From: Ignavibacteria bacterium
GTDB taxonomy: Bacteria > Bacteroidota > Ignavibacteria > UBA10030
NCBI GenBank assembly: GCA_016873805.1
Contig: VGVZ01000003.1
Location: 62,001 to 126,000, forward strand
Direction of reading: 5' to 3'
DNA: 64,000 bases
The notes beneath the pieces are model-generated. The model did no database searches. It had not been told where the DNA came from and worked only from the letters and a program-made list of their open reading frames with translations. A program made the position numbers and the translations under genes. This document shows, in pieces, positions 41,713 to 58,542 of the stretch (the first letter of the stretch is position 1; the number at the start of each line of letters is the position of its first letter).

Positions 41713-41741
41713 TTGACAAAAAGCCTTATGTGTTCTATATT
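41713..41741 (+). promoter_or_regulatory. Promoter of TonB/T9SS cassette A
   Basis: A perfect TTGACA at 41713-41718, 17 bases, then TATATT at 41736-41741 followed by TG. The predicted start near 41748 leaves a leader of about 300 bases before the receptor gene. The stretch 41536-41712 before it contains no gene; a short ACTCCG/CGGGGT hairpin just after serA could be a weak terminator. Confidence 0.75.
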
Positions 41742-41781: not shown

Positions 41782-41791
41782 GGAGGTGATC
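41782..41791 (+). promoter_or_regulatory. Extended anti-16S element in the leader of cassette A, without a start codon
   Basis: GGAGGTGATC is complementary to the last bases of a standard 16S rRNA 3' end (GATCACCTCC), far beyond a normal Shine-Dalgarno. No ATG, GTG or TTG stands at a usable distance, and the real start is 259 bases further on. The leader of cassette B has the same motif (50397-50409), followed in both by CTGRG and GCGCGCG. Confidence 0.5.
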
Positions 41792-42049
41792 TGAGAGCGC
41801 GCGGTATCCAGAGCGCCGACGTATGAGTTTGTGAACGCTTCGCGGTAGATGTATCCATTGGCCAAGCAACCTGCTTCCGTAGTCTGCTTTGCGCTTGAGC
41901 GAGTAGTAATGTGCGGAGTGCTCGTTGGGTTGAGGAATGACGCAGCATCGCGGTCAATCCTCGGGTGCTACTCATTCTGGCCAATCCTTCTGTTTGTAGA
42001 AACCTCTGTACAATCAATTCAACTCATATCCATCAAAGAGGAGGTAGAT

Positions 42050-45000
42050 ATGCTTCGTAACCTCTTGATTACTACCACTCTGTTGCTCGTTTTCCCAGTG
42101 CTCCTTTTTGCCCAGGACGGTAAGCTCCGTGGCAAAGTCACAGACAGGGAGTCCGGAGATCCTCTGATCGGGGCGAACGTGGTGATAGATGGTACAAGTC
42201 TGGGTGCATCGACAGACATCAGCGGTGAATATGTCATCCTGGCTGTGCCGCCGGGCACCTATGCGGTGAAGGTCTCGTACATCGGCTACTCGCCGGTCAC
42301 GATCTCCAACATCCGGGTCGGTGCAAACCTGACGGTCAGGCAGGATTTTGCTTTGTCGACCACGGCTATCGCGGTTGAGGCCGTTGAAATCGTGGCCGAT
42401 CGTCCCCTGATTCAGAGAAACACGACGAATACGGTCCGAGTGACGACCCAGGAGAATATTAAGAACCTCCCGTTCCGCGGGCTTCAGAATATCATCGCCT
42501 TGGAGGCCGGTGTTGTTCAGCAGAACGGAAACCTGTATGTCCGCGGCGGCCGCTCGGGTGAAGTGGCATACTTTGTTGACGGCGCAGGCGTCACAAACCC
42601 GATTTTCAACAGCGAAAACGTCAGTGTTATTCAGGAAGCGGTCGAAGAACTCCAGCTCCAAGCCGGCGGATATACGGCGGAACTGGGCGGTTCGAACGCC
42701 GGTATCGCACGGACAACGATGCGATCAGGCGGCAGTTCCTTCACCGGCAGTATTGACTACCAGACTGACGACTTTGCGAAGCCGGGCGAGGAGTTTTTGG
42801 GTACGACATCGCGTGGCTATCGGAACGCTGTTGTCACCGTCGGTGGCCCGCTGCCGTTTGCAAAGAACGTGAAGTTATTCTTTGCCGGTCAGCACAACTA
42901 CGTCCGCAATCGTCAGGCCATTCTCATCGAACCCTTCAAATTCGAGAACCTCTTGAGCGACGTGAATGATGCGAGAGGGGCAGGGCAACCGTTGCCGGGT
43001 CCAATCGAATTCAAGCGCAACTATCTCTACAATAACTATGGCATGACCAATACGTTTCAGGGAACCGTGCTATGGGATTTGGCGCCGTTCAAGCTCAAGG
43101 CGACCGCAAGCTACGATTTCTTTGAGCGTCCCTCTGGTGGTCAGTGGCCGACAGCATTGCGATTTTATTTCAACCAGGGCCGGAACCTGATGCAGGAGAC
43201 GGGAACGTATTTTGGCAACGTCAGATTGACCCACGTGATCAATCCGACCACGTTCTATGAAATCGGCGTGTGGGGACAGCTGCGTTCGTTCCGTTCCTAT
43301 GATCCTGACTTCGGCGACGACTGGAAGTTGTATGCGGACAGCACTGCGAACGCCGACAAGGGATTCACAGGGTTCCGCGCGAAATATCGCGGCCCGAACA
43401 ATTACAGCATTATCAATGCGTTCACGATCCAGCATGAAAACTCCCCGAACAACTCGTACAGCAAGAACGAGCAGATGTCGCTCGGATTCTCCGCTGACCT
43501 CACCTCCCAGCTCGACAAAAACTGGGAATTGAAAGCCGGCGGCAGGTTGGAATCATGGACGGTCCGCAACTGGGCAATCAGCGACATTTCCTCTTACATG
43601 CGGTTCGCGTTTGGTGAGGATGGGAAGAGCGTCCGGACGTTCACCGACGCGCAAGAGCGGAGAATTCGGCTTGCGCAGCGCGGCGTCATCAACCACTACG
43701 GCTTCGATGTGGATGGAAACAAGGTCGATAGCGGCGTCGATGCTCCTCCGCAGCCGATGTTTGCCTCGGCATATGTCCAGAATCGGTTCGAGTACGATGA
43801 CCTGATTCTGAACCTCGGTGTTCGGTTCGAGTATTTCGATACCGATCACAAATCGTTCAGCGATCCGAACAGCCTGAAGAATGCAAACTTCAGCGCTGAC
43901 TTCGATCCAAACCTTGACGTGATTAACGAGCAAGCCCTCGTTGGCGTGGATCCGTTCCAGCTCGTTCTTCCGCGGGTCAGCTTCTCGTTCCCGGTCACAG
44001 ACAAGACCGTGTTCTACGCGCAGTACGGCAAGTACGCTCAGATGCCCTCGTTGAACCAACTCTACGTCGGCACGGCGACTTTGAGCCGCTCGGTCAGCCC
44101 GATCACTCGTGGAAATGCCTTCTTGACGCCGGTTGGGTTCTTCATGAAGCCAGAGCGCACCACGCAGTACGAAATGGGTATCCGTCAGCTGCTGAGCGAC
44201 AACTTTGCATTTACCGTCAGTGGGTTCTACAAGGATCTTAAGGACCAGCTGAATGTTCGTCTCTATGCTCCGGAAGGCACGCGACTCTTCATCTCGTACC
44301 TGAACGAGGACTTTGGTACGACGAAAGGCGTCGAGTTGACCCTCGAACTGCGTCGGACGAACCGACTCGCCGCAAAGGTGAACTACACGCTCTCCGATGC
44401 GCAGGGAACGGGCTCCGATCCTCGTTCGGCTCAAGGCGCGATCGAGCAGAATATCGGTCGACCGATCAGCATCATTGCTCCGCTTGCGTTCAATCAGGCT
44501 CATCGCGGATCGATCATGCTTGACTATCGCTTTGCGAAAGGGGACGGCGGACCAATTCTTGAAGGCCTTGGAGCCAACGTTCTCCTGACCTTCAATAGCG
44601 GCCACAATTACACACGGGTAAAGGAACCGACCGAACTCGGTCAGTCGAATCCCTGGGACGTCGGAGTCGAGAACATGAACGATCCTCGCTCCAGCTTCCC
44701 GGTTGAGCCGCTGAACAATTCGACGACTCCTTGGATCTTCAATGTGGATCTCAATCTCAGTAAGATGTTCTATCTTGGTGATGTGAATCTCGAGTTCTAC
44801 GTGAACGTACTGAATCTCTTCAACTCGAAGCAGATTCTGAACGTCTATCCGACCACTGGTACTGCGCAGGATGACGGATGGCTGACGAGCCCGCTCGCGG
44901 CTCCGTTTGCCGCAGATCCGCAGTATGTCGCATTCTATAAGGCGATCAATCAGGACAATCGCTGGGCCTATATGGGTGCGGGACGCGGTCAGGTTGGCAC

Positions 45001-45055
45001 CGACATTTACGGTGCTCCCCGTCAGATTCGGGTCGGATTGAAACTGGAAATGTAA
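42050..45055 (+). CDS. TonB-dependent outer-membrane receptor with carboxypeptidase-regulatory-like domain (cassette A)
   Basis: 1001 residues from ATG at 42050 behind AGAGGAGG; the longer open frame from 41849 is leader sequence. A signal peptide (LLITTTLLLVFPVLLFAQ) is followed by a CarboxypepD_reg-like beta domain (residues ~23-105, KLRGKVTDRESGDPLIGANV). A plug domain comes next (RGLQNIIALEAGVVQQNGNL, YVRGGRSGEVAYFVDGAG), then a 22-strand-type barrel ending RQIRVGLKLEM. The layout is that of SusC-like or CirA-like importers powered by TonB-ExbBD. No susD gene follows; instead a T9SS cargo and a PorV-like gene do. Substrate unknown. Confidence 0.92.
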   Translation: MLRNLLITTTLLLVFPVLLFAQDGKLRGKVTDRESGDPLIGANVVIDGTSLGASTDISGEYVILAVPPGTYAVKVSYIGYSPVTISNIRVGANLTVRQDFALSTTAIAVEAVEIVADRPLIQRNTTNTVRVTTQENIKNLPFRGLQNIIALEAGVVQQNGNLYVRGGRSGEVAYFVDGAGVTNPIFNSENVSVIQEAVEELQLQAGGYTAELGGSNAGIARTTMRSGGSSFTGSIDYQTDDFAKPGEEFLGTTSRGYRNAVVTVGGPLPFAKNVKLFFAGQHNYVRNRQAILIEPFKFENLLSDVNDARGAGQPLPGPIEFKRNYLYNNYGMTNTFQGTVLWDLAPFKLKATASYDFFERPSGGQWPTALRFYFNQGRNLMQETGTYFGNVRLTHVINPTTFYEIGVWGQLRSFRSYDPDFGDDWKLYADSTANADKGFTGFRAKYRGPNNYSIINAFTIQHENSPNNSYSKNEQMSLGFSADLTSQLDKNWELKAGGRLESWTVRNWAISDISSYMRFAFGEDGKSVRTFTDAQERRIRLAQRGVINHYGFDVDGNKVDSGVDAPPQPMFASAYVQNRFEYDDLILNLGVRFEYFDTDHKSFSDPNSLKNANFSADFDPNLDVINEQALVGVDPFQLVLPRVSFSFPVTDKTVFYAQYGKYAQMPSLNQLYVGTATLSRSVSPITRGNAFLTPVGFFMKPERTTQYEMGIRQLLSDNFAFTVSGFYKDLKDQLNVRLYAPEGTRLFISYLNEDFGTTKGVELTLELRRTNRLAAKVNYTLSDAQGTGSDPRSAQGAIEQNIGRPISIIAPLAFNQAHRGSIMLDYRFAKGDGGPILEGLGANVLLTFNSGHNYTRVKEPTELGQSNPWDVGVENMNDPRSSFPVEPLNNSTTPWIFNVDLNLSKMFYLGDVNLEFYVNVLNLFNSKQILNVYPTTGTAQDDGWLTSPLAAPFAADPQYVAFYKAINQDNRWAYMGAGRGQVGTDIYGAPRQIRVGLKLEM

Positions 45056-45159
45056 TTCGGAGGATCGCAGACGAATTGTCGTCTCCGATCGTTCGGCACG
45101 TCCACACATAGAACGGTTGAAGATCCTGAACTTGAATTAACCTCAGAGGAGTTTTCAAT

Positions 45160-48100
45160 ATGAAGAAACCGAATATCAAACTCGTGATCCTGTTAGGCAC
45201 GCTGCTCGCCTTTATGTTTGCGTTCGCGAGCGCAGCCGAAGGTCCCGAGAAGACCAAGCGAGTTGATACGAAGCAGGGACTGACCAAGACGTCGGGAACA
45301 CCCCTCTACCAGGTATTGAACATCAACAATATCCGGACATGGGCCCGCGCCGACGGTTCGTCCAACCACTCCCCTCAAGGGGATGATGGCGGCTACTATC
45401 CTCGCGGTGCGAAGTGGGTGATCTACCAGGATGGATTTGTCTGGGGCGGCAAGGCATATTTGAATGCCGCGCTCACTCAGCCTCATGCAAGTCAACTCAT
45501 TCGCGTGGGCGGTGGTACCTACAACCAAGGAACACGCGAAGGTGCCATCGTGGGTACGGGAGCTGCTGCAGTTCCCGAAAACAGACAGCTCGATCTCGTT
45601 CGGATGTTTAAGATCCGACGCGACTACTATACCATGAGCGATGTTGAACTGACGAGGGATGCATCCGATTACTATGAGATTCCAATCTCCGATGTGACGG
45701 AATCCCAGAAAGCGGCGGTCAAGGCGTTGTACGATCTTGACTGGAAGCAATGGCCGGTGTCCAAAGGTGCGCCGTACATCGAACGAAACGGCACGCCGGG
45801 GTACCAGGCTCCCCCCGCATTCAGTGCGACATTTACGGTAAACAACCTGATATCGGGCAATTATGATGAGCCCGGTTTCGCAGGCGGAGATCCGAGCTCC
45901 CCTGCGGATCAGGTCATCTGGACGGTATACAATGATCTCGAGCCGGCAGCAGTTCAGGGCTTCGCTGGTTCTGATCCGTTGGGCCTCGAGGTTCAGATGA
46001 CCCTGTGGGGATACAAGCGCACGGACGCCATGGGTAATCTCTACTTCAAGCGCTTCCGCTTCATCAACAAGGGAGGCGTCACGACAACCGGTACGACGAA
46101 GGGCTCCTTCTGGATCGACAGTATGTATGTCGCCCAGTGGTCCGATCCCGACGTCGGCTCGTTCGGCGATGACCTGGCCGGTTGCGATACCACACTGAGT
46201 CTGGGATATGCCTACAATGGCAATGCGATCGACGCTGAGTTCCGGAAGTTCAACCTTCCTCCTCCGGCCGTGGGATACGATTTTCTCCAGGGCCCGATCG
46301 TCAGGGGTGCCGCAACCGATGTCGGCATCTTCGACATGAAGAAGAGGACAGGTTTCAAGAATCTTCCGATGACCTCGTTTGCGTACTTCTCCGCCGGTAG
46401 TGGAATCTCCGATCCTCCGTTCTCCTATGAAGGAGGTCTTCGGTGGTGGAGAATGCTCCAGGGCTATGTTCCTGATGCTTCAACCGCGGCATGGCGACTC
46501 TATCCCTTCCCGCCGGGAATGACCCCGAACAAGTTCCCCCTCTCGGGTGATCCCGTACGGAGGACTGGATTCATCGATGGTCTTGGTCAGACGTTTTCGT
46601 TTGCGCCCGGCGATCGCCGAATCGTCCTCAATAGCGGTCCATTTACCCTCGCTCCCGGTGACACGCAGGAAGTCGTCGTCGGAACAGTGGCGGGACTTGG
46701 TTCCGACCGGTTGAGTTCGATCGCGGTCATGAAGTTCAACGATCGCTTCGTGCAGAACACCTACGACGCGCTCTTCCAGGTCGCGAAGGCACCGGCCGCG
46801 CCGGATGTCAAGATCGCGGAACTCGATGGCGAGGTCATTCTCGAATGGGGTTCGAACCTCGATCGCGTCAAACTGACTGAAGAGACCATCAGCCAACCGG
46901 GTGCGTACAAGTTCGAAGGGTACAATATCTACCAGCTCCCGAGTTCATCTTCGAGGCTTTCCGAGGGAACACTCGTGGCGACCTACGACTTGACCACGGA
47001 TCCGACGGTTGTTCTGGATGAGCAGTTTGACCAGAAGTCCGGTCAGATTCTCCAGCTGCCCGTTCAGTTCGGTACGAACAGCGGCATCGTTCGTTACTTC
47101 CAGTTCAAGCGGGATTATGTTCGCGACATCGACAAACTGAACAACGGCCAGGAATACTACTACGCGGTGACAGCGTACAGCGTTGCCACGGTCCCTGGAT
47201 TCCTCCCGTCTGCACTCGAATCTGATCCTCTGGTGTTTACGGCACGACCGAAGGTTCCATTCGGCAAGGTCATTTCGATCAGCATGGGAGATACGCTGAA
47301 AGCCACCAAGACCGGTGTCAGCGACGGCGCGGTTCGCCCAATCGTTGTCAATCCCCTTGCCGGGACGGGCGACACCTATGAAGTCACGTTCAAAGACGCA
47401 GGTGGTGGAAGCACAACCTGGAGTCTCACGAACAAGACCAAGGGTAAAACCGTTCTCACAGATCAGACCAATCAGTCCGGCGACGAGAACTACAAGCTCG
47501 TCGAGGGGGGTATCTTCCTGAAGGTGGAAGGACCTCCTCCGGGGATGAAGGATTGGGATATTCCGAACGGTGCCCGGCGCTTCACCTGGGCGGATGGATG
47601 GACCGGCTTTGAAGGGTTCGAAGGGACCATCGGCTGGAACGAGCCGGCATACTACTTTGGCAGTATTCCGGAAAGGACGGTCAAGGCGCACGAGCTGAAG
47701 AACGTCCTGATCAAGCTTGCTGCGGCAAGTTCCGGTACCGCAACGAATCCAAATGCGGGGAACAATCCGTATGGCGGTTGGGATGTCAACAATCCGGGTG
47801 CTGATCCCAACTTCTCGTACGCGTATCGTTTTCTGAGAGGTGCCACCGCAGCTCCGGCACGTCCAGAGTTCGCGCCGTATATCGTGAACGCCACGTCGGG
47901 CTATCCGTATCAGGACTACAAGCGTGGTGTGCCATTTTCCGCGTGGGATGTGGAAGCAAATCCGCCGGTGCGGCTTGCTGTCGCAATCCATGAAAACAAC
48001 GTCGCCGCTGGACTGGTCGACGGTAAATGGTGGCCGCCTGCGAACGGGACGGGTGTGACACAGTCAACTGTGCGTGATATGGTCTTCATTATGAATACGC

Positions 48101-48648
48101 CATACACCGGTGCCACACCGGACCCCGCCATCACATCGAAGAACATGCTGACTCAAGGTTTGCCCATCATGTATTGGCTCGGCGTCAATCGCCGCGGCGG
48201 CGCAGATTTCTCCGCCGGCGACGAATTCCTGATTCTCGCGAATCATGTGAATACACCGACGACCAAGTTCACATACACCGTTCCTGCGCCGCAGGCCGGT
48301 GCCGAGGTCGAGAAGATGTCGGCGGGCAAGGTCGGCGTGTTCCCGAATCCATACTACGCTTTCAACGCGGCTGAGACCAACAGACTGGTTCGATTCGTCA
48401 CCTTCAACAACCTTCCGCAGGTTGCCACGGTGCGAGTCTTCAACCTCGCTGGACAGCTTGTGAGAACACTGAGGAAGGATGATGCGTCACAATTCCTGCG
48501 CTGGGATTTGACGAATGAAAACAACTTCCCCGTCGCAAGCGGAATGTACATCGTTCATATCGAGCTCACCTTCTCCGATGGCTCCACCAGCACGAAGGTG
48601 CTGAAGCTGGGTGTCATCCAGGAGCAGGAAGTGCTCGATGTGTTCTAA
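45160..48648 (+). CDS. Large secreted protein with T9SS type A C-terminal sorting domain (cassette A)
   Basis: 1162 residues after AGAGGAG. A signal peptide (residues 1-26) leads to a long N-terminal region of no family I recognise. A fibronectin-III-like region lies at ~545-690 (PDVKIAELDGEVILEWGSNL; FEGYNIYQLP). From ~1058 comes the type A sorting domain: VGVFPNPYYAFN, VRVFNLAGQLVRTL, LRWDLTNENNFPVASGMYIV, ending LKLGVIQEQEVLDVF. Such a domain directs export through the type IX system and surface attachment. It lies 104 bases after the receptor and 34 before the PorV-like gene. I infer a surface partner of the receptor; no enzymatic motif is visible. Confidence 0.88.
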   Translation: MKKPNIKLVILLGTLLAFMFAFASAAEGPEKTKRVDTKQGLTKTSGTPLYQVLNINNIRTWARADGSSNHSPQGDDGGYYPRGAKWVIYQDGFVWGGKAYLNAALTQPHASQLIRVGGGTYNQGTREGAIVGTGAAAVPENRQLDLVRMFKIRRDYYTMSDVELTRDASDYYEIPISDVTESQKAAVKALYDLDWKQWPVSKGAPYIERNGTPGYQAPPAFSATFTVNNLISGNYDEPGFAGGDPSSPADQVIWTVYNDLEPAAVQGFAGSDPLGLEVQMTLWGYKRTDAMGNLYFKRFRFINKGGVTTTGTTKGSFWIDSMYVAQWSDPDVGSFGDDLAGCDTTLSLGYAYNGNAIDAEFRKFNLPPPAVGYDFLQGPIVRGAATDVGIFDMKKRTGFKNLPMTSFAYFSAGSGISDPPFSYEGGLRWWRMLQGYVPDASTAAWRLYPFPPGMTPNKFPLSGDPVRRTGFIDGLGQTFSFAPGDRRIVLNSGPFTLAPGDTQEVVVGTVAGLGSDRLSSIAVMKFNDRFVQNTYDALFQVAKAPAAPDVKIAELDGEVILEWGSNLDRVKLTEETISQPGAYKFEGYNIYQLPSSSSRLSEGTLVATYDLTTDPTVVLDEQFDQKSGQILQLPVQFGTNSGIVRYFQFKRDYVRDIDKLNNGQEYYYAVTAYSVATVPGFLPSALESDPLVFTARPKVPFGKVISISMGDTLKATKTGVSDGAVRPIVVNPLAGTGDTYEVTFKDAGGGSTTWSLTNKTKGKTVLTDQTNQSGDENYKLVEGGIFLKVEGPPPGMKDWDIPNGARRFTWADGWTGFEGFEGTIGWNEPAYYFGSIPERTVKAHELKNVLIKLAAASSGTATNPNAGNNPYGGWDVNNPGADPNFSYAYRFLRGATAAPARPEFAPYIVNATSGYPYQDYKRGVPFSAWDVEANPPVRLAVAIHENNVAAGLVDGKWWPPANGTGVTQSTVRDMVFIMNTPYTGATPDPAITSKNMLTQGLPIMYWLGVNRRGGADFSAGDEFLILANHVNTPTTKFTYTVPAPQAGAEVEKMSAGKVGVFPNPYYAFNAAETNRLVRFVTFNNLPQVATVRVFNLAGQLVRTLRKDDASQFLRWDLTNENNFPVASGMYIVHIELTFSDGSTSTKVLKLGVIQEQEVLDVF
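48085..48173. repeat. 89-bp exact repeat, copy in cassette A
   Basis: Identical to 56687-56775. It sits within a ~300-bp tract (47935-48240) that matches the other cargo gene at about 95%, with nearly every difference at third codon positions, while neighbouring parts of the two genes differ much more. Consistent with recent gene conversion. Confidence 0.85.
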
Positions 48649-48682
48649 GTGCTCTCAAAACTGCCAATAAGGAGACAAGAAT

Positions 48683-49723
48683 ATGAAACAACGACTCTTT
48701 ATCAGCGGTCTGTTGCTCTGCATTCTGATGCTTGCCGCACTTGGAACACTCGAGGCACAGAGCAAGAGAATCGGTACAGCGACCGCTACTGAACTCCTGA
48801 TCCCCATCGGCGCGAGAGACCTCGCACGAGGAGGATCGTCTATCGCGGATTCCCGCGGCATTGAAGCCGTGCACTGGAATCCCGCGGGCCTTGGCCGGAT
48901 GGAACATGCGGCTGAGGGAATGTTTTCCTCGATGACGTACATCGCCGATATCGGAGTGAACTTCGGCGGCGTCGCAGCCTCGTTCAGCGGCTTCGGTGTC
49001 GTCGGATTCACGGTGAAATCGCTCGACTTCGGCGATATTCCACTCACGACAGAATCGGATCCTGAGGGAACGTCCGGACGGCTCTATTCGCCGGCGTTCG
49101 TCACCATCGGCCTGAGCTATGCCAGGTCCCTCACCGATGCGATCTCTGCCGGTGGAACGGTAAAAATCGTGTCCGAACAGATCGACCGAGCCTCGGCGTC
49201 TGGATTTGCCCTCGATTTCGGCGTGCAATACAATAAGCTCGCCGGTATCAACGGACTGCACCTTGGCGTGGCCGTGAAGAATATCGGTCCCCAATTGCAG
49301 TTTGATGGACCGGGACTTCTGCGAAATGCGCGATCCAGTGATGGTGACCGCCCCGAGCAGAAGTTCAAGTCTGAGGCAGGATCATTCGAGCTCCCGTCCG
49401 TTGTGGAAATCGGCCTCGCGTACGATGCGACGCTCACCGACAATCTGGTGGGAACCGTATCGGGGTCATTCACCAACAACAACCTCTATACCGACGAATA
49501 CCGGGTAGGAGGTGAGCTGGGCTTTGATCTCGGATCCGTGAAGCTCTTCGGTCGGGCCGGACTCGGTATGGCTCCGCAAGTCGATACGAATATCTTCGGC
49601 GCATCCTTCGGCGCGGGAATATTCTACGCGGCTCCCGGAATCAACCTGACGGTTGACTATGCCTACAGAAACGTCGACTTCTTTGACGCAAATTCGGTCA
49701 TTTCTGTGAAGATTGGATTCTAG
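48683..49723 (+). CDS. PorV/PorQ-family outer-membrane protein (cassette A)
   Basis: 346 residues after AAGGAG. A signal peptide ends at LGTLEAQ. The mature start has RIGTATATELLIPIGARDLA followed by EAVHWNPAGLGRM, the PorV/UPF0164-like signature of FadL-type barrels, and the end is a barrel strand (NSVISVKIGF). PorV is the T9SS shuttle that binds cargo sorting domains at the translocon and brings them to the attachment complex; PorQ has a related role. Encoded directly after a sorting-domain protein, it may be a dedicated escort for it. That pairing is inference. Confidence 0.87.
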   Translation: MKQRLFISGLLLCILMLAALGTLEAQSKRIGTATATELLIPIGARDLARGGSSIADSRGIEAVHWNPAGLGRMEHAAEGMFSSMTYIADIGVNFGGVAASFSGFGVVGFTVKSLDFGDIPLTTESDPEGTSGRLYSPAFVTIGLSYARSLTDAISAGGTVKIVSEQIDRASASGFALDFGVQYNKLAGINGLHLGVAVKNIGPQLQFDGPGLLRNARSSDGDRPEQKFKSEAGSFELPSVVEIGLAYDATLTDNLVGTVSGSFTNNNLYTDEYRVGGELGFDLGSVKLFGRAGLGMAPQVDTNIFGASFGAGIFYAAPGINLTVDYAYRNVDFFDANSVISVKIGF

Positions 49724-49752
49724 CGTCTGAGCAGTCTGAAGAATGCTCCAAG

Positions 49753-49788
49753 AAGGCCGGTTCAGATGATGAGCCGGCCTTTCTTTTT
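49753..49788 (+). terminator. Intrinsic terminator after cassette A
   Basis: AAGGCCGGTTCA (49753-49764) pairs with TGAGCCGGCCTT (49770-49781) over a 5-base loop, a 12-bp stem with one G-T pair, followed by TCTTTTT. It separates the two cassettes transcriptionally. Confidence 0.88.
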
Positions 49789-49913
49789 CCCGGCGGGGAT
49801 GAACAAAGTGCTCCGGCTCCCGCTTGTATCCGCAGGCACAATTGCTGTTTCAGAGGTCGAGCCAACCCTATTGAATTCTCCTGCGAATAAGTCTCAATTA
49901 TTGAAAAAAGTCC

Positions 49914-49942
49914 TTGACAAGAATTGCGCTTCGAGGTATATT
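49914..49942 (+). promoter_or_regulatory. Promoter of TonB/T9SS cassette B
   Basis: A perfect TTGACA at 49914-49919, 17 bases, TATATT at 49937-49942. It has the same boxes and spacing as the cassette A promoter. A start near 49949 gives an unusually long leader of about 690 bases. Within 49949-50637 I see no gene: only short chance frames. Confidence 0.72.
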
Positions 49943-50396
49943 CGCAAGCCGCAAGATCTCTCGGTATCCTTCCACAGTTCCGCAACCGATAGACCGGGAA
50001 ACTGAAGTCGATGCGGCACCATGCCACACTCCAGGCCGTCGCGCACCCGCGACGCTAGACTTACCGATAAGCTCCGTTCTGCCGAGCAACGCTCCGCAGG
50101 ACCAATTGACAACTGAAAACCGCAAACGGTGTGGATGCTTTTTCAATCCCATCTTGATGCGGTCCGTTTGCTGATATGGATTGCTCAACAATTTATCGCG
50201 AAGCCGACAGATGGAGAGCGTCACTGGTGTTGCTCTCACGGTTGTTCCTTTTTCGTTGTCGTTAGCGGATCCGGGTCACGGGATCTGACTCTCTCGACAT
50301 CGCGTCATCATAGCCGCCACGTAAGCAGAATCGACGAACTCACGCTTTCTCAACGATCATTTTCGCTGCGAGTTGATCTATTTCCATTTGCACATT

Positions 50397-50409
50397 GAAA
50401 GGAGGTGAT
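50397..50409 (+). promoter_or_regulatory. Extended anti-16S element in the leader of cassette B, without a start codon
   Basis: GAAAGGAGGTGAT is a 13-base perfect complement of a standard 16S rRNA 3' end (ATCACCTCCTTTC). No usual start codon follows at 4-12 bases. The true start is 228 bases away and has its own GGAGGAGG. It matches the motif at 41782 and is followed by the same CTG and GCGCGCG context. Confidence 0.5.
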
Positions 50410-50637
50410 ATCTGGGCGCGCGAAATCTGCGGGCCGAATGGGGAGACTTGCGATTGATTTGTCGTTCGTTTTCTGGTTGAGGGAAATGGGAGTGTACGAT
50501 GGGAAGGGATGGAGGGCGGCGGCGGGGCGTTCGTTGGATCGACGGAAGAATCCAATCACAGTTGCTCATTCCCTCGCAGGTAGTATCCGATCACTTCTAG
50601 TGTAATCAACACACATCCATCTCTGGAGGAGGTAGAT

Positions 50638-53600
50638 ATGCACCGTAACCTCTTGATTACTATCATCATTCTATTGCTCGTTGTGCCCGCGCTCCTGTTC
50701 GCTCAGGATGGAAAGATCCGCGGCAAAGTTACGGATCGGGAGACAGGAGATCCTCTCATCGGGGCGAACGTAGTGATAGATGGTACAAGTCTGGGCGCAT
50801 CGACAGACATCAATGGGGAATACACGATTCTGACAGTGCCGCCCGGTACGTATGCAGTAAAAGTTTCGTACATCGGCTATGCGTCGGTGACGATCTCGAA
50901 CGTTCGCGTGAGTTCGAATATCACGACGACGCAGGATTTCCTCGTTTCATCGACAGCGATTCAGGTCGACGCCGTGGAAATCGTTGCCGAACGACCGTTG
51001 ATTCAGCGCAACACGACGAACACGATTCGCATGACGACGCAGGAGAACATCAAGAACCTCCCGTTCCGTGGACTGCAGAATATCGTGGCGTTAAACGCCG
51101 GCGTTGTTCAACAGGATGGAATTCTCTACGTCCGTGGCGGCCGCTCGGGTGAAGTGGCATACTTCATCGACGGAGCAACCGCAACAAACCCCTTGTTCAA
51201 TTCCGAAGCGATTTCCCCAATTCAGGAAGCCATCGAAGAAATCCAGTTGCAATCGGGCGGATACACAGCGGAGTTCGGTGGGGCCAATTCGGGGATCGTG
51301 CGGACAACCGCGCGCACCGGCGGCAAGACATTTCAGGCAACGGTCGATTATCAGACAGACGATTTCGCCAAGATGGGGAGTCAGTTCCTCGATACCTCCC
51401 CTCGCGGCTATCGCAATGCCGTCGTCACGCTCGGGGGACCGGTCCCGATGATGTCTGCCATGCGTTTCTTCGTTGCCGGCCAGCACAACTACTTGCGCAA
51501 TCGGAATCACATGTACCTGGTGCCGTTCAGATTCGACAGTCTCGTCACGGACGGCTATGACAACCGTCCGATCGGCACGCGGCTGCCGGGTCCGGTGGAG
51601 TTTCAAGAAAATGCACTTCCCGGGAATACCCGACAGGAAAACACTCTCCAGACGACCCTGCTGTGGGATGCCAATCCGGTAAAGGTTCGATTTACGGGAA
51701 GCTACGCGCAGATCGTTTCGCCGGGAGGCAAATCATGGCCGACTGCTCTCAACAGCTATTTCCGAAAGAGGAATACCGAGAGCACGACGAACAACACATT
51801 CGGAAGTCTGCGAATCACGCACGTTCTCTCTCCGACGACATTCTATGAAGTCGGACTTTCATATCTCGATCGAAGCGCAAAGACGATTGATCCCGCCTTC
51901 GGTGATGACTGGAGACTCTATGTCGATAGCGTAGAGGCGTTCAATCGAGGGTACGTGACCAACGGGACGACCGGATGGCGAAGCCGATTCACAGGGCCAA
52001 CCTCGTACAGTGTGATCAATGCGTTCTCATTCACGCATGAGAATGCACCGATCAATTCGTACAGCAAAAGCTCGCAGACCAATATGGGCCTCACCGTCGA
52101 TCTCACCTCCCAGATCACCTCGAACTGGGAATTGAAAGTCGGCGGCCGTCTGGATGCCTGGTCGATGCGCTCCTTCTACGTTGGCGATATCGCCACGCTC
52201 AATACGTTCCTCGATGGAGCCGGAGCAAAGTATGATCGTGCGAAGCTCGATGCCGATCCGGCTCTGATGAGAGAGTACAAAGTGTACGCCGATCGCAGGG
52301 GATCGATGAACAACTACGGGTACGATGTGTTCGGCGATAAGCTTGACGATGGTCCGGAAGGTCCGCGCAAGCCAATGTTCGCCTCCGCGTACTTCCAGAA
52401 CAAGTTCGAGTTCAGCGACCTCGTGCTGAACCTCGGACTGCGGTATGAGTATCTCGATGTCAACAACATCACCGTCGCGGACTATGTCAGCCCTGACTGG
52501 GACTACGCGCTGAACTATTTCAAGACTGATGATATGCTGGTCGAGACCGATCCGTTCAACATGCTCCTGCCGCGTATCAGCTTTTCGTTCCCCGTAACCG
52601 AGAAGACGGTCTTCTATGCGATGTACGGGAAGTATGCGCAGTTCCCCGATCTGAACCGATTGTACGATGGGAACGGATATTTCGCCTCACGCATCAGCCC
52701 GGTGAGTCGCGTCGGCTATACCATCGCCGCCGCCCCTGCCGGCACGGGATTTTTGGCGAAGCCTGAGCGCACAACCCAGTACGAAGCCGGATTCCGTCAG
52801 ACCGTGGGGGACAACGCAGCATTCACGATCAGCGGATTCTACAAAGATATCAAGGATCTGCTCCAAATCCGTCGCGTAACAAATGCGCTGGGCGTTCCAA
52901 TCTTCGCCGCGTACGGCAACGAAGATTTTGCCACGACCAAAGGTATCGAGTTGACGCTTGAACTCCGCAGGATCAATCGCCTCATGGCACGGCTGCACTA
53001 CACGCTCTCTGATGCCCGTGGCACTGGCTCAAATGCCATGTCGTCACGTGTTGCGGTGAGTGACCAGTCGGATGTCCGCTTCCCGAACTTCATCTACCAG
53101 CTCGACTTCAACCAGGGCCATGTGGGAACCGTCATGGTTGACTATCGCTGGGCGAAGGGAGACGGCGGTCCGCTCGTGGAAGGTCTGGGTTTCAACTGCC
53201 TCGTCACGTTCAATAGCGGTCACAACTACACACGAATTCTCGAGCCACAGAACCTCGGTCAGGCAAGCCCCTGGAACATTGGTGTCCGGCCGTTGATCGA
53301 TGCCCGCACGAGGAATCCAATTGAACCTGTGAACAGCTCATCGACACCCTGGGTGTTCAACGTCGACTTGAACATCAACAAGGTCTTCTACTTTGACGAT
53401 TTCAATGTTGAATTGTACGTCAACGTGTTGAACCTCTTCGACACGAAGCAGATCATCAACGTCTTCCCGAACACGGGAACGGCGCAGGATGACGCATGGC
53501 TGCGAAGCCCGCTTGCTGCTTCGTTCCTTGCGATTCCCGGCTATGCCGAATTTTACAAAGCGATCAACATCGACAACCGGCATGCCTACATCGGCGCGAC

Positions 53601-53661
53601 AGGGAATGATCTCTTCGGCACTCCGAGACAGATTCGCGTTGGGGTAAAGGTCGAACTCTAG
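50638..53661 (+). CDS. TonB-dependent outer-membrane receptor with carboxypeptidase-regulatory-like domain (cassette B)
   Basis: 1007 residues, paralogous to the receptor at 42050 over its whole length. ATG follows GGAGGAGG. Signal peptide (LLITIIILLLVVPALLFAQ), CarboxypepD_reg-like domain (KIRGKVTDRETGDPLIGANV), plug (RGLQNIVALNAGVVQQDGIL, YVRGGRSGEVAYFIDGAT) and barrel ending RQIRVGVKVEL. The promoter-proximal ends are nearly identical to copy A (75 bp with six differences at 50746-50820), while the barrel loops diverge strongly, as expected if the two import or bind different ligands. Confidence 0.92.
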   Translation: MHRNLLITIIILLLVVPALLFAQDGKIRGKVTDRETGDPLIGANVVIDGTSLGASTDINGEYTILTVPPGTYAVKVSYIGYASVTISNVRVSSNITTTQDFLVSSTAIQVDAVEIVAERPLIQRNTTNTIRMTTQENIKNLPFRGLQNIVALNAGVVQQDGILYVRGGRSGEVAYFIDGATATNPLFNSEAISPIQEAIEEIQLQSGGYTAEFGGANSGIVRTTARTGGKTFQATVDYQTDDFAKMGSQFLDTSPRGYRNAVVTLGGPVPMMSAMRFFVAGQHNYLRNRNHMYLVPFRFDSLVTDGYDNRPIGTRLPGPVEFQENALPGNTRQENTLQTTLLWDANPVKVRFTGSYAQIVSPGGKSWPTALNSYFRKRNTESTTNNTFGSLRITHVLSPTTFYEVGLSYLDRSAKTIDPAFGDDWRLYVDSVEAFNRGYVTNGTTGWRSRFTGPTSYSVINAFSFTHENAPINSYSKSSQTNMGLTVDLTSQITSNWELKVGGRLDAWSMRSFYVGDIATLNTFLDGAGAKYDRAKLDADPALMREYKVYADRRGSMNNYGYDVFGDKLDDGPEGPRKPMFASAYFQNKFEFSDLVLNLGLRYEYLDVNNITVADYVSPDWDYALNYFKTDDMLVETDPFNMLLPRISFSFPVTEKTVFYAMYGKYAQFPDLNRLYDGNGYFASRISPVSRVGYTIAAAPAGTGFLAKPERTTQYEAGFRQTVGDNAAFTISGFYKDIKDLLQIRRVTNALGVPIFAAYGNEDFATTKGIELTLELRRINRLMARLHYTLSDARGTGSNAMSSRVAVSDQSDVRFPNFIYQLDFNQGHVGTVMVDYRWAKGDGGPLVEGLGFNCLVTFNSGHNYTRILEPQNLGQASPWNIGVRPLIDARTRNPIEPVNSSSTPWVFNVDLNINKVFYFDDFNVELYVNVLNLFDTKQIINVFPNTGTAQDDAWLRSPLAASFLAIPGYAEFYKAINIDNRHAYIGATGNDLFGTPRQIRVGVKVEL

Positions 53662-53743
53662 TTGGTGAGCGGCCGCGTGTGAACGACGCGGCCAGTGAAG
53701 TTCATTGATTGAAACTAACTCGATCAACGTAAGGAGTTTTCCT

Positions 53744-56700
53744 ATGTCCAAAACAATTCATCGATTTCCTCTTGTGGCTGCCGTGCTCTGTTTGCTGCTC
53801 GCAGGATCGGTCTCGTTGAGTGCGAAGGACCCTGACAAGAGCGGTACCGAAAAGAAGCAGTCTCTTGCCAAAGGAGCCGCATACAATACGAAGTATGCCG
53901 TACTCAACATCAGCAATCTATCGACCTTTCACAGGTACGATGGATTGTCAAACCATTCTCCTGCGTCGGACAACGGCCTTTACTATCCCAAGTTCACCTC
54001 GTGGGCAATCTATGAGGATGGACTGATGTGGGGCGCCAAGGCCTACACCAACGCGGCAAAGACGAGTCCAGCACCGCTCAATCAATTGATACGCGTCGGC
54101 GGTTCTCACTACCGGTGCGGCACACAGGCCGGTCGGCTTATCGGAACCGGCGCCAGTGCGGTCGGGGACGACCCGAACGGTCCCCTCGTCCGTGCCTTCC
54201 GAATTCGCCGGGACTACTTCACAATGGACCCGGAGGAGCTTCGGAAAGATGCTGCGAACGTCTACGAAATACCGGTCATTCAGGTAACCGATGTGCTCAT
54301 GGCGGAAGTTCTGGCCCAGTACGAAAAGGATTGGAAAGACTGGCCGGTTGCCTACGGCGCACCATACATCGAGCGGAACGGAGTCCCGGGTTACCAGGCT
54401 CCGAAAGCGTTCAGCGCGGCCTTCAACGCTGATAGTCTCATCTCGGGCAATTATGATGAACCGGGAATCGCCGGCAGCGACCCAAATTCCCCTGCCGACC
54501 AGGTCATCTGGATGGTCTTCAACGACCTCAGCAGAGCGCTCACCACGGCTCTCAATGGTTCCGAGCCGATGGGTCTGGAAGTCCAGAAGACACTTTGGGG
54601 CTACAAGCGCTCCGACGCGTTGGGCAATCTCTACTTCCAACGATACAAACTCATCAATAAGGGTGGGGTTGATGTCAGCGGAACAGGAACGAAGGGCTTC
54701 TTCTGGCTCGACAGCATGTACGTCGCGCAATGGTCCGATCCCGATCTCGGCGGAGCAGGAGATGACCTGATCGGTTGCGACACCGTGCTCAGCGTGGGCT
54801 TCGTGTACAACGGTGTTCCAATCGACCTCGAGTATCAGAAATACCGTCTCCCGCCCCCATCCTCAGGCTATGACTTCCTCGCCGGCCCAATGGTGGCTTC
54901 ACCGGGAGGCAGAGCCGTGTTTGATATGAAATATCGGGATGGGTACAAGAATCTCGGCATGACGGGATTCTCCTGGTTCTCTGCCGGAGCGGCGATATCA
55001 GATCCTCCGTCCGCGTATGCGACCGGAACGATCAGGTGGTACAAGATGCTTCGGGGGTATGCTCCTGTCGATGGAGCTGACAGCTACTATCCCTGGCATC
55101 CTGCATATCTCCCGGCAGGTCCCTTCCCGCTTTCCGGAGATCCTGTGACCGGAAAAGGGTACGTTGACGGTTTGGGGACGACCTACTCGTTTGCCCCGGG
55201 CGATCGACGCTTGAACCTTGCGTCAGGACCATTCAATCTCGCCCCCGGCGACACGCAGGAAGTCACCGTCGGCGTGGTGGTTGGTCTCGGTTCCGACAGA
55301 ATCTCGAGCGTGGCAGTGTTGAAGTTCAACGATCGGTTCGCGCAGAATACGTTCGATGCTCTCTTCGCTGTCACGAAACCTCCGGTCGCACCGGATGTCA
55401 AGATTGCAGAGCTGGATGGCCAGGTGGTTCTGGAATGGGGCTCGAATCTCCAGCGAGTCAGCGACATCGAGACCCGGGTTGGGAATCCCGGTGCCTACAA
55501 GTTCGAAGGGTACAACGTCTACCAATTCCCGACCGCCGGATCGTCCTTGAAGGATGCGAAACGCCTTGCGACGTTCGATCTTCCGACCGATCCTGCCGTC
55601 GTTCTCGATGAGCAGTTCGACGCGAATTCTGGGCTTGTTCTCTTCAAGCCGGTTCAATTCGGAACGAATAGCGGAATCACGCGGTATTTCAAACTCGACA
55701 AAGACTACATCCGAGATCTCCCGAGGCTGTACAATGGCCAGGATTACTATGTTGCAGTCACGGCCTATGCAGTTGCTACGGTACCGGGATTTCTCCCGTC
55801 CGTGCTGGAATCAAGTCCGACGGTTCTGGCAGTCCGTCCGCAGGTTCCGTTCGGAAAGGTGCTTTCGATCGGGTCCGGTGATACTCTGAAGTTCACGAAG
55901 GTTGGAACCAGCGATGGTGTTGTTCGACCGATCGTGGTCAATCCGCTGGCCGGGACCGGCGATACGTACGAAGTGACGTTCCAGCCGATCGCAGGGAGTG
56001 CCAACACGAGCTGGACGCTGAAGAACAAGACGAAGAACACGACGCTTCTTTCCGGCGAGACCAATCAATCCGGGGACGGCAACTACAAGATGGTGGAAGG
56101 CGGTATCTTCCTGAAGGTTGAGGGACCACCACCCGGAATGAAAGACTGGTCCATTCCAAACGGTTCTCGGCGCTTCACCTGGGCAGATGGATGGACCGGC
56201 TTTGAAGGTTTCGAAGGGACCATCGGCTGGAACGAACCGGCATACTACTTTGGCAGTATTCCGGAAAAGACGGTCAAGGCGCATGAGTTGAAGAACGTTC
56301 TGATCAAGCTCGCCGAAGCACAGTCGCACACATCATCCAATCCGGCATCGGGAACTGGAAATCCGTATGGCGGCTGGGATGTCGACAATCCGGGCGCTGA
56401 TCCGAATTTCTCCTATGCTTACCGCTTCGTGAGAGGCGTTGCGGTTGGTGGTACTGCCGCGCGTCCGGAGTTTGCTCCATATATTATCAACAGAGCGAGC
56501 GGATATCCGTATCAGGATTACAAGCGAGGGGTGCCATTCTCCGCCTGGGATGTGGAAGCGAATCCGCCAGTGCGGCTTGCTGTCGCAATCCATGAAAACA
56601 ACGTCGCAGCTGGACTGGTCGATGGCAAATGGTGGCCGCCTGCGAATGGGACGGGTGTGACACAGTCAACGGTGCGTGATATGGTGTTCATTATGAATAC

Positions 56701-57241
56701 GCCATACACCGGTGCCACACCGGACCCCGCCATCACATCGAAGAACATGCTGACTCAAGGTTTGCCCATCATGTACTGGCTCGGCGTGAATCGCCGCGGC
56801 GGCGCAAATTTCTCCGCCGGCGATGAGTTCCTCATCCTCGCCAATCACGTCAACACGACGGCCACGGTATTCAACTATACGGTTCCTGCGCCGGCGACAT
56901 CAGCAGAGCATCAGATTGCCAGCGCGAATGAGCTCGGCGTGTTTCCGAATCCGTACTATGCCTCAAATCCCGCAGAGACGAACAGGTTCGGCAGATTCGT
57001 CACATTTAACAATTTGCCGAAGAAGGCGACAATCAGAATCTTCAACGTTGCCGGTCATATGGTCACGACACTCGAGAAGGACGACAACTCGCAATTCTTC
57101 CGGTGGAACCTGACCAACAGGTACAACTTCCCGGTGGCGAGCGGAATGTATGTTGCGTTCGTTGACATGCCGGAACTCGGCATCACGAAGATGCTGAAGC
57201 TGGCTATTATCCAAGAGCAAGAACTCCTGGATGTCTACTAG
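53744..57241 (+). CDS. Large secreted protein with T9SS type A C-terminal sorting domain (cassette B)
   Basis: 1165 residues from ATG at 53744, 7 bases after AAGGAG. Paralogue of the protein at 45160 with the same order: signal peptide, unknown N-terminal region (YAVLNISNLSTFHRYDGLSN), FN3-like region (PDVKIAELDGQVVLEWGSNL) and sorting domain from ~1063 (LGVFPNPYYASNP to LLDVY). Some patches are almost identical at DNA level to copy A and others differ. It lies 82 bases after its receptor and 39 before its PorV-like gene. Function unknown; probably surface-exposed partner of the receptor. Confidence 0.88.
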   Translation: MSKTIHRFPLVAAVLCLLLAGSVSLSAKDPDKSGTEKKQSLAKGAAYNTKYAVLNISNLSTFHRYDGLSNHSPASDNGLYYPKFTSWAIYEDGLMWGAKAYTNAAKTSPAPLNQLIRVGGSHYRCGTQAGRLIGTGASAVGDDPNGPLVRAFRIRRDYFTMDPEELRKDAANVYEIPVIQVTDVLMAEVLAQYEKDWKDWPVAYGAPYIERNGVPGYQAPKAFSAAFNADSLISGNYDEPGIAGSDPNSPADQVIWMVFNDLSRALTTALNGSEPMGLEVQKTLWGYKRSDALGNLYFQRYKLINKGGVDVSGTGTKGFFWLDSMYVAQWSDPDLGGAGDDLIGCDTVLSVGFVYNGVPIDLEYQKYRLPPPSSGYDFLAGPMVASPGGRAVFDMKYRDGYKNLGMTGFSWFSAGAAISDPPSAYATGTIRWYKMLRGYAPVDGADSYYPWHPAYLPAGPFPLSGDPVTGKGYVDGLGTTYSFAPGDRRLNLASGPFNLAPGDTQEVTVGVVVGLGSDRISSVAVLKFNDRFAQNTFDALFAVTKPPVAPDVKIAELDGQVVLEWGSNLQRVSDIETRVGNPGAYKFEGYNVYQFPTAGSSLKDAKRLATFDLPTDPAVVLDEQFDANSGLVLFKPVQFGTNSGITRYFKLDKDYIRDLPRLYNGQDYYVAVTAYAVATVPGFLPSVLESSPTVLAVRPQVPFGKVLSIGSGDTLKFTKVGTSDGVVRPIVVNPLAGTGDTYEVTFQPIAGSANTSWTLKNKTKNTTLLSGETNQSGDGNYKMVEGGIFLKVEGPPPGMKDWSIPNGSRRFTWADGWTGFEGFEGTIGWNEPAYYFGSIPEKTVKAHELKNVLIKLAEAQSHTSSNPASGTGNPYGGWDVDNPGADPNFSYAYRFVRGVAVGGTAARPEFAPYIINRASGYPYQDYKRGVPFSAWDVEANPPVRLAVAIHENNVAAGLVDGKWWPPANGTGVTQSTVRDMVFIMNTPYTGATPDPAITSKNMLTQGLPIMYWLGVNRRGGANFSAGDEFLILANHVNTTATVFNYTVPAPATSAEHQIASANELGVFPNPYYASNPAETNRFGRFVTFNNLPKKATIRIFNVAGHMVTTLEKDDNSQFFRWNLTNRYNFPVASGMYVAFVDMPELGITKMLKLAIIQEQELLDVY
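56687..56775. repeat. 89-bp exact repeat, copy in cassette B
   Basis: Identical to 48085-48173. A second nearly identical patch pairs 47586-47697 with 56176-56287 (about five differences in 112 bases). Confidence 0.85.
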
Positions 57242-57280
57242 TCATTCTCACATCCAAAGAATGAACAAGGAGAAATTGAA

Positions 57281-58327
57281 ATGAATAACAGGTTTCTTAA
57301 TTATCTTGCGGTGGCCTGTCTGATTCTCGCTCTTGGCATTCAAACCGGCGAAGCGCAGAATAAGAGGATAGGGACAGCCGCAGCATCGGAACTGCTTGTT
57401 CCCATCGGTGCCCGTGATTTTGCCATGGGAGGTGCATCAATCTCCACGGCAAAAGGTGTCGAGGCGATTCACTGGAATCCGGCGGGGCTGGGCCGAATCG
57501 GCTATTCCGCCGAGGGAATGTTCTCGACGATGAGCTACATCGGTGATATCGGTGTGAACTACGGCGCCGTTGGTGCACACTTCAGCGGTATCGGAAGTAT
57601 CGGCATCAGCGTCAAAACTCTGGATTTCGGTGATATCAAGCTCACAACGCATGACGATCCGGAAGGAAAGGGTGGACGTCTGTTTTCACCGACCTACGCA
57701 ACCATCGGCTTCACGTATGCTCGCGATCTCACCGACGCGATCTCGGTCGGGACCTCCGTGAAGGTCATCTCCGAGCAAATCGACCGCGTCTCAGCAACCG
57801 GATTCGCGATTGATTTCGGCGTTCAATATACAGGTCTCGCCGGTGTCCGGGGTCTGGGCGTCGGAGTTGCCGTGAAGAACATCGGACCGCAGATGAAGTT
57901 CGACGGACCGGGTCTTCTCCGCAGTGGGACGGCGAGCGGCGAGCGCCGACCCGAACAGAAATACGTGATCGATGCCGCGTCATTCGAACTCCCTTCACTG
58001 ATTGAGATCGGATTGTCCTACGGCGGCGCTTTCGAGGACAACCTGAAGTATTCGATGAACAGCTCGTTCACGAACAATAACCTGTACTACGACGAGTACC
58101 GACTTGGAGGGGAAGTCGGATACACGATCGAAGATCTGTCACTGTTCGGTCGCGCCGGTATGGCGATGACGCCACAAGCAGAGGAAAAGGAGAATATTTT
58201 CGGACCGACATTCGGTTTTGGTATTCACTATACCATGACCGGCATGAGTGTCTCCCTTGACTTTGCGTATCGGCAGGTCGAATTCTTCGACGCCAACCAG
58301 GTGATCTCGGTGAAGATCGGGTTCTAG
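57281..58327 (+). CDS. PorV/PorQ-family outer-membrane protein (cassette B)
   Basis: 348 residues after AAGGAG. Paralogue of the protein at 48683: signal peptide ending GEAQ, RIGTAAASELLVPIGARDFA, EAIHWNPAGLGRI and a final barrel strand NQVISVKIGF. The repeated-barrel glycine pattern and final aromatic residue are typical of outer-membrane proteins. Last gene of cassette B; two hairpins follow. Confidence 0.87.
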   Translation: MNNRFLNYLAVACLILALGIQTGEAQNKRIGTAAASELLVPIGARDFAMGGASISTAKGVEAIHWNPAGLGRIGYSAEGMFSTMSYIGDIGVNYGAVGAHFSGIGSIGISVKTLDFGDIKLTTHDDPEGKGGRLFSPTYATIGFTYARDLTDAISVGTSVKVISEQIDRVSATGFAIDFGVQYTGLAGVRGLGVGVAVKNIGPQMKFDGPGLLRSGTASGERRPEQKYVIDAASFELPSLIEIGLSYGGAFEDNLKYSMNSSFTNNNLYYDEYRLGGEVGYTIEDLSLFGRAGMAMTPQAEEKENIFGPTFGFGIHYTMTGMSVSLDFAYRQVEFFDANQVISVKIGF

Positions 58328-58372: not shown

Positions 58373-58395
58373 TCGTCAGGATGAATGAGGTACAG

Positions 58396-58430
58396 AGAGG
58401 CTGTCCGGATGTCTTGGACAGCCTCTTTCT
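58396..58430 (+). terminator. Intrinsic terminator after cassette B
   Basis: AGAGGCTGTCC (58396-58406) pairs perfectly with GGACAGCCTCT (58416-58426), followed by TTTCTTT. It lies 70 bases after the PorV-like stop. It also shows that the frame opening at 58381 is not the start of the next gene. Confidence 0.88.
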
Positions 58431-58542
58431 TTACAACCCGTGTGGCAATTCTGGGAAAAGAACGTTACACTATCTCACGATGTCTCCCAACGCTTTCCTC
58501 CCATGCATTGAGCTCAATCTCATCAATCAATTCGATGGACGT

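Follow-up and report, generated by a model that had tools for sequence, protein, structure and literature searches.

We sought to identify why, in a 64,000-nucleotide stretch of an Ignavibacteria bacterium genome (assembly GCA_016873805.1, contig VGVZ01000003.1, positions 62,001 to 126,000; hereafter the window), a gene for a TonB-dependent receptor (T) is followed, twice over, by genes for a cargo (C) of the type IX secretion system (T9SS) and for a PorV-family barrel (V). The explanation that we favour, and hold to be probably correct, is that each cassette encodes a single surface machine, in which V would be a private barrel that carries and anchors C, and C would act as the surface ligand-binding partner of T. 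V-linked cargos have their own class of C-terminal sorting domain (CTD), which tracks V. Gene labels were assigned by profiles built for this analysis, and the cassettes are written T1-C1-V1 and T2-C2-V2. The two 7.7-kb paralogous cassettes had been described as sharing gene order, gaps and promoter type, and all six open reading frames (ORFs) were found intact in the order T-C-V:

42050..45055, plus strand: T1, TonB-dependent receptor, 1001 residues, with signal peptide, CarboxypepD_reg, Plug and TonB-receptor barrel (Pfam/NCBIfam); its ATG follows AAAGAGGAGGTAGAT.
45160..48648, plus strand: C1, T9SS cargo, 1162 residues, Sec signal peptide without lipobox cysteine (ORF and NCBIfam; AlphaFold2 model).
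45295..46779, plus strand: N-terminal beta-supersandwich domain of C1, residues 46-540 (structure matches).
48328..48618, plus strand: V-linked CTD of C1 (V-linked CTD profile, 89.1 bits; structure matches to the PorZ and PorU CTDs).
48616..48645, plus strand: C1 tail IQEQEVLDVF beyond the canonical CTD end, with terminal aromatic residue (sequence; last part unordered in the model).
48683..49723, plus strand: V1, PorV-family barrel, 346 residues, FadL fold (NCBIfam; top solved match PorV).
50638..53661, plus strand: T2, TonB-dependent receptor, 1007 residues (ORF, Pfam/NCBIfam).
53744..57241, plus strand: C2, T9SS cargo, about 1165 residues (best start ATG 53744; mechanical ORF start TTG 53705).
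56933..57214, plus strand: V-linked CTD of C2 (V-linked CTD profile, 94.1 bits).
57209..57238, plus strand: C2 tail IQEQELLDVY, with terminal aromatic residue (sequence).
57281..58327, plus strand: V2, PorV-family barrel, 348 residues (ORF, NCBIfam).

A tree was built of 92 sorting domains, and in it the 54 V-linked ones split from the 38 others with none misplaced (support 0.92); the latter comprised 29 canonical cargos of the source genome, five canonical neighbours, three unlinked homologues of the triad cargos and PorU, and the canonical domains came mostly from one genome. With held-out profiles, class I domains preferred the class II model in 27 of 27 cases, and the converse held in 27 of 27. 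A V-linked CTD profile was also built without the sequences of three genomes (G000, which is the source genome, G298 and G304) and then searched in those three. All 12 matches of at least 70 bits lay directly upstream of a PorV-family gene, as did one of the six at 40-50 bits. Cargo homologues with a canonical CTD had no genuine V adjacent to them, and no T where the contig permitted the check. Since the same cargo body is here joined to another sorting domain and stands without T or V, these homologues amount to a natural swap experiment.

The end of the protein also differed. Window-type cargos extended about 10 residues past the canonical end, with the consensus LK-L-A-I-I-Q-E-Q-Q-I-L-D-x-F/Y; the canonical type A ending, a stop at the KKMxLxK strand without extension, was not found in the V-linked window-type cargos. 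Of 114 V-linked cargos, 104 had F, Y or W as their last residue. Among unlinked homologues the figure was 3 of 16 (Fisher p 2e-9), and none of 29 canonical cargos ended in this way (p 4e-22); the canonical cargos of the source genome ended in K, R or Q. In the AlphaFold2 model of C1 alone the last four residues of the tail were unordered, as would be expected if the peptide requires a binding partner. Because other triads lack the aromatic tail, it was dropped as a candidate for a general element of V recognition; the tail is a feature of a subclass. Taken at the level of sequence, a CTD class and a tail that both track V lend strong new support to the proposal of an earlier note on this DNA that the PorV-like protein is the private escort of the cargo, and the C-V pairing may be called well supported by genetics.

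The cargo had been described as a type A T9SS protein of about 1160 residues, and against the type A model TIGR04183 (cut-off 23) C1 scored 31.3 bits; C2 fell just under the cut-off as a protein (22.1 bits) and passed in the genome scan (24.4 bits). The C1 model had a mean predicted local distance difference test score (pLDDT) of 87.7, and its CTD matched those of PorZ (Z 12.0, root-mean-square deviation (rmsd) 2.2 over 94) and PorU (Z 10.3). Residues 46-540 resembled the beta-supersandwich of sugar-active enzymes: glucodextranase matched at Z 17.8 and dextran dextrinase at Z 18.7, the latter with an rmsd of 3.3 over 255; searching the cargo profile by sequence against solved structures gave nothing useful. 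The assignment of V to the PorV/PorQ family likewise stood, with V1 and V2 scoring 130.8 and 137.2 bits against the PorV_fam model NF033709 (cut-off 90). The V1 model (pLDDT 87.6) is a 14-strand FadL fold whose best match was PorV of the T9SS translocon (8gl6_F, E 1.7e-12), followed by FadL. Both V proteins stayed below the cut-offs of the PorV and PorQ equivalogs NF033710 (47-52 vs 250 bits) and NF033711 (69-81 vs 220 bits), and the type B CTD model TIGR04131 and the PorP/SprF model TIGR03519 were absent from the family-search matches of C and V.

Cognate pairs of cargo and barrel have been described in other settings. Type A cargos exit the SprA translocon on PorV (PMC10994853), and type B cargos of Flavobacterium johnsoniae exit on cognate SprF barrels encoded adjacent to them (PMC12618676). 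As in the type B systems, the triad cargo gene lies immediately upstream of that for its own PorV-like barrel, the two are paired through the CTD class, and the CTD is probably uncut with the cargo anchored by the barrel. The triads depart from those systems in having a type A-like CTD, a barrel of the PorV/PorQ family and a TonB receptor at the head of the operon. PorZ and PorU retain their sorting domains uncut, bound to PorQ and PorV, and it has been proposed that this is because the cognate barrel protects them (PMC10202324). The triad shares with these pairs the CTD fold, a partner barrel of the PorV/PorQ family and, by analogy, an uncut CTD held by the barrel, but C has no PorZ or PorU body by family search and V lies under the equivalog cut-offs. 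In BamG-BamH, too, a FadL-family barrel grips a surface protein by a conserved terminal peptide, although in that case, within the BAM complex, the protein held (BamH) is a lipoprotein and the binding is through its N-terminus (PMC12578637). The source genome (3.2 Mb, 99% complete) also has the general pathway: PorU (994 bits), true PorV (281 bits) and SprA are over cut-off, and the PorU-PorV pair was confirmed. A search of 60 genomes found SprA in each, including every triad genome of the set; the sole record without it was a plasmid. Presence of SprA was dropped as a discriminator, as genomes of the same class without the window-type triad (G027, G059, G043 and others) have it as well.

The arrangement is not confined to the window. 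Among 296 genomes of the phylum, 85 gave a match to a profile of the two window cargos, and a profile search of genome contigs returned more than 540 cargo relatives, among them records named Gemmatimonas/Gemmatimonadaceae, KSB1, Latescibacterota, Handelsmanbacteria and Delongbacteria; the nearest named relatives were Ignavibacteria. Stygiobacter electus, a cultured relative, has a triad. For 112 of 140 distinct cargo homologues, the neighbouring genes on the same strand were T immediately upstream and V immediately downstream. Eleven of the 140 had neither, two had T only and one a doubtful V only, the remainder being mostly cut by contig ends. The cargo would have been a poor candidate partner had it occurred mostly away from TonB receptors, but T was adjacent in 121 of the 136 homologues with sufficient upstream sequence; V was adjacent in 114 of the 130 with room, a count over non-independent loci that includes one weak, distant and probably spurious V match (L132). 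T and V were present or absent together around the cargo homologues, and no natural fusions among T, C and V were found in the examined loci. When PorV-family genes were followed in five genomes regardless of cargo, T-C-V was the commonest setting besides the true PorU-PorV and accounted for the majority of the genes that were not true PorV, with cargos of about 600-1300 residues, and the smaller cargos in other T-C-V operons resembled the window cargo little outside the sorting domain. Beyond the two in the window, the source genome holds three further triads, on contigs 31, 13 and 1, as well as a relative split between contigs 6 and 51. T-C-V is an operon class with several copies per genome, not one duplicated locus.

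Plasmid pRMAR01 of Rhodothermus marinus (NC_013502.1) carries an annotated TonB-dependent receptor, a hypothetical protein and a PorV/PorQ family protein in the same T-C-V order, but there the cargo is distant, its CTD is of canonical length and the operon has no assigned function. Since this operon is plasmid-borne, the class may move between replicons. No description of a T-C-V operon was found in a short search of the open-access literature.

If T, C and V act together, their trees should agree, and they did. For 102 complete triads from 95 genomes, distance correlations (Mantel) were 0.82 for T-C, 0.90 for T-V and 0.82 for C-V. Host phylogeny alone could give such correlations, and genomes with two triads were therefore used as a control. 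Within genomes, the number of agreeing comparisons was 268 of 271 for T-V, 211 of 250 for T-C and 252 of 307 for C-V; partner swaps reached the within-genome agreement values in 10 of 500 trials, near the floor for seven genomes. Strong tree splits were in conflict in 1 of 58 cases for T-V and 13 of 58 for T-C. The lower agreement of C fits recombination of its C-proximal module, and C recombines more, as in the stretch nearly identical in DNA between C1 and C2 (below).

The receptor had been called SusC-like, which was too strong. T carries the family domains CarboxypepD_reg, Plug and TonB barrel (Pfam), but T1 and T2 scored 67.0 and 74.0 bits against the SusC/RagA model TIGR04056 (cut-off 368), mostly from the N-terminal domains, and the other triad receptors scored 39-57 bits. 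Judged by the curated model, T is a TonB-dependent receptor and not a SusC. A profile of 28 T proteins gave short or weak matches only against solved structures. The window was correctly said to contain no SusD; the whole genome has one, elsewhere at C1:189698 (here a contig coordinate, not the cargo), beside a different receptor of SusC size, so that a SusCD-type pair exists in this genome alongside the triads. C itself starts with an ordinary Sec signal peptide that lacks a lipobox, and it gave no match to the SusD family. Triad and SusC-SusD have in common a TonB-dependent receptor with an N-terminal carboxypeptidase-regulatory domain, a receptor gene adjoining the gene of a large, probably ligand-binding surface protein, and many paralogous copies. 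They differ in that T lies far under the SusC cut-off, the partner is a T9SS cargo lacking lipobox and SusD match, and a PorV-family barrel is added. The triad may work like SusCD; that it is SusCD does not hold.

These results can be joined into the following mechanism. Export of C would begin with Sec and continue through the T9SS translocon, from which V, as a dedicated carrier, would take C by means of the distinct sorting domain and, in the window subclass, also of the conserved tail of about 10 residues ending in F or Y. V would keep the CTD bound, as PorQ does with PorZ, so that C would stay on the surface rather than being cut by PorU and then released or joined to lipopolysaccharide (LPS). 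Placed beside T, the supersandwich N-domain of C could act as a capture module or lid feeding ligand, most likely a glycan, for TonB-driven import; linkage to T and the likeness of this domain to sugar-active enzymes point indirectly to such a role. We likewise infer stable anchoring of C by V and contact of C with T. The tandem cassettes would then be paralogous machines of diverged specificity.

Several points weigh against this reading. Other triads of the source genome have a V-linked CTD but no aromatic tail, some V-family genes are solitary, and V is missing from beside a few cargos whose CTD is of the V-linked class. A predicted supersandwich fold shared with sugar enzymes does not show sugar binding. 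As T is not SusC by the curated model, the SusC hinge-and-lid mechanism is not simply transferable, and operon linkage together with shared ancestry can yield congruent trees without contact.

One alternative is that T only shares the operon and acts alone, and that C and V form a cognate cargo-carrier pair which anchors a surface protein, for instance an adhesin or a binder of glycans. We regard this as unlikely, though it deserves serious attention: the link of CTD to V is much better documented than that of T to C, PorU-PorV is a cargo-barrel pair without T, and C-T trees conflict more than T-V trees. An independent T would, however, hardly be expected in nearly every triad and to be lost together with V (112 loci with both, two with T only, one with a doubtful V only), nor does it sit easily with the within-genome agreement of T and V in 268 of 271 comparisons.

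C could instead be an ordinary type A cargo on the general PorV/PorU pathway, with V a redundant helper. The genome does have PorU and a true PorV, and C1 passes the type A model, but its CTD class and the canonical type A domains found in this genome separated with zero errors, and homologues with a canonical CTD lacked a genuine adjacent V; we therefore consider this explanation very improbable. The least probable, to which we give little credence, is that V acts on its own as a small-ligand channel of the FadL type, uninvolved with C, in an operon that groups several uptake functions. In its favour, V shares its fold with the FadL proteins, which are transporters; yet the nearest solved relative of V is PorV rather than FadL, and a free channel would not explain why V can be predicted from the CTD of C.

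We also compared the two cassettes and their surroundings. Protein identity between them is 60% for T, 68% for C and 61% for V, and the intergenic gaps of cassettes 1 and 2 are similar (T-C 104 and 82 nt; C-V 34 and 39 nt). Recent duplication was rejected, as the copies differ by 30-40% outside one stretch of C. Much of C residues 807-1006 is nearly identical in DNA between C1 and C2, with the remainder diverged: third-position identity was 0.72-0.92 in three of four 50-codon windows there and 0.3-0.6 elsewhere, which makes gene conversion between the copies the probable cause. The region before the sorting domain (about residues 800-1040) looked unlike that of the window cargo in three close relatives (L059, L064, L071), which suggests module exchange. 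Further features of the cassettes are:

41713..41741, plus strand: cassette 1 promoter-like site TTGACA-17-TATATT (11/12 consensus positions; consensus match only).
41782..41803, plus strand: cassette 1 leader motif GGAGGTGAT-N6-GCGCGCG, common to both cassettes.
47578..48177, plus strand: C1 module, residues about 807-1006, largely homogenised with C2, probable gene conversion (third-position identity).
49752..49782, plus strand: hairpin resembling an intrinsic terminator, downstream of V1 (sequence pattern).
49914..49942, plus strand: cassette 2 promoter-like site TTGACA-17-TATATT, hexamers identical to those of cassette 1 (11/12 consensus positions; consensus match only).
50401..50422, plus strand: cassette 2 leader motif GGAGGTGAT-N6-GCGCGCG, common to both cassettes.

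The leader motif occurred twice in the window against 0 expected, each time between the promoter-like site and the start of T, in leaders of about 300 and 700 nt, and was not seen in the relatives' loci from other genomes. Directly 3' of cassette 2 (58381-60897) lies the gene of an 838-residue protein with a PIG-L deacetylase domain; no terminator-like site was found between them, and this gene may be transcribed by read-through from the triad. The window keeps the order aminotransferase - serA - triad - PIG-L - GWxTD - NHL - ssb (38758-63711) found in many Ignavibacteria loci, where serA - T - C - V - PIG-L - GWxTD - NHL - ssb recurs, with the triad doubled inside the block. Elsewhere in the source genome, a near-identical T9SS cargo gene of about 741 residues stands on contig 51 (L225) and contig 6 (L230). 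This repeat probably broke the assembly of a sixth system, ordered cargo - canonical cargo - unknown - receptor - PorV-family.

Extended beyond the window, the favoured reading, one machine per cassette, would describe a widespread uptake complex parallel to SusCD, with a T9SS-delivered capture subunit kept next to its TonB receptor by a private PorV-family barrel, by way of its own CTD class, in several copies per genome across the FCB (Fibrobacterota, Chlorobiota and Bacteroidota) group; we give this an even chance. If it is true, T9SS cargos would not be only released or LPS-linked enzymes, since one class of them would be fixed subunits of TonB-driven uptake machines with PorV-like carriers of their own. 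The cognate-shuttle principle of type B domains and SprF barrels would be extended to type A-like domains, whereas the literature has PorV serving all type A domains. Many TonB receptors that lack a SusD, in Ignavibacteria and in lineages close to them (Gemmatimonadota, for example), would also gain a testable role, as would the many unassigned PorV/PorQ family proteins.

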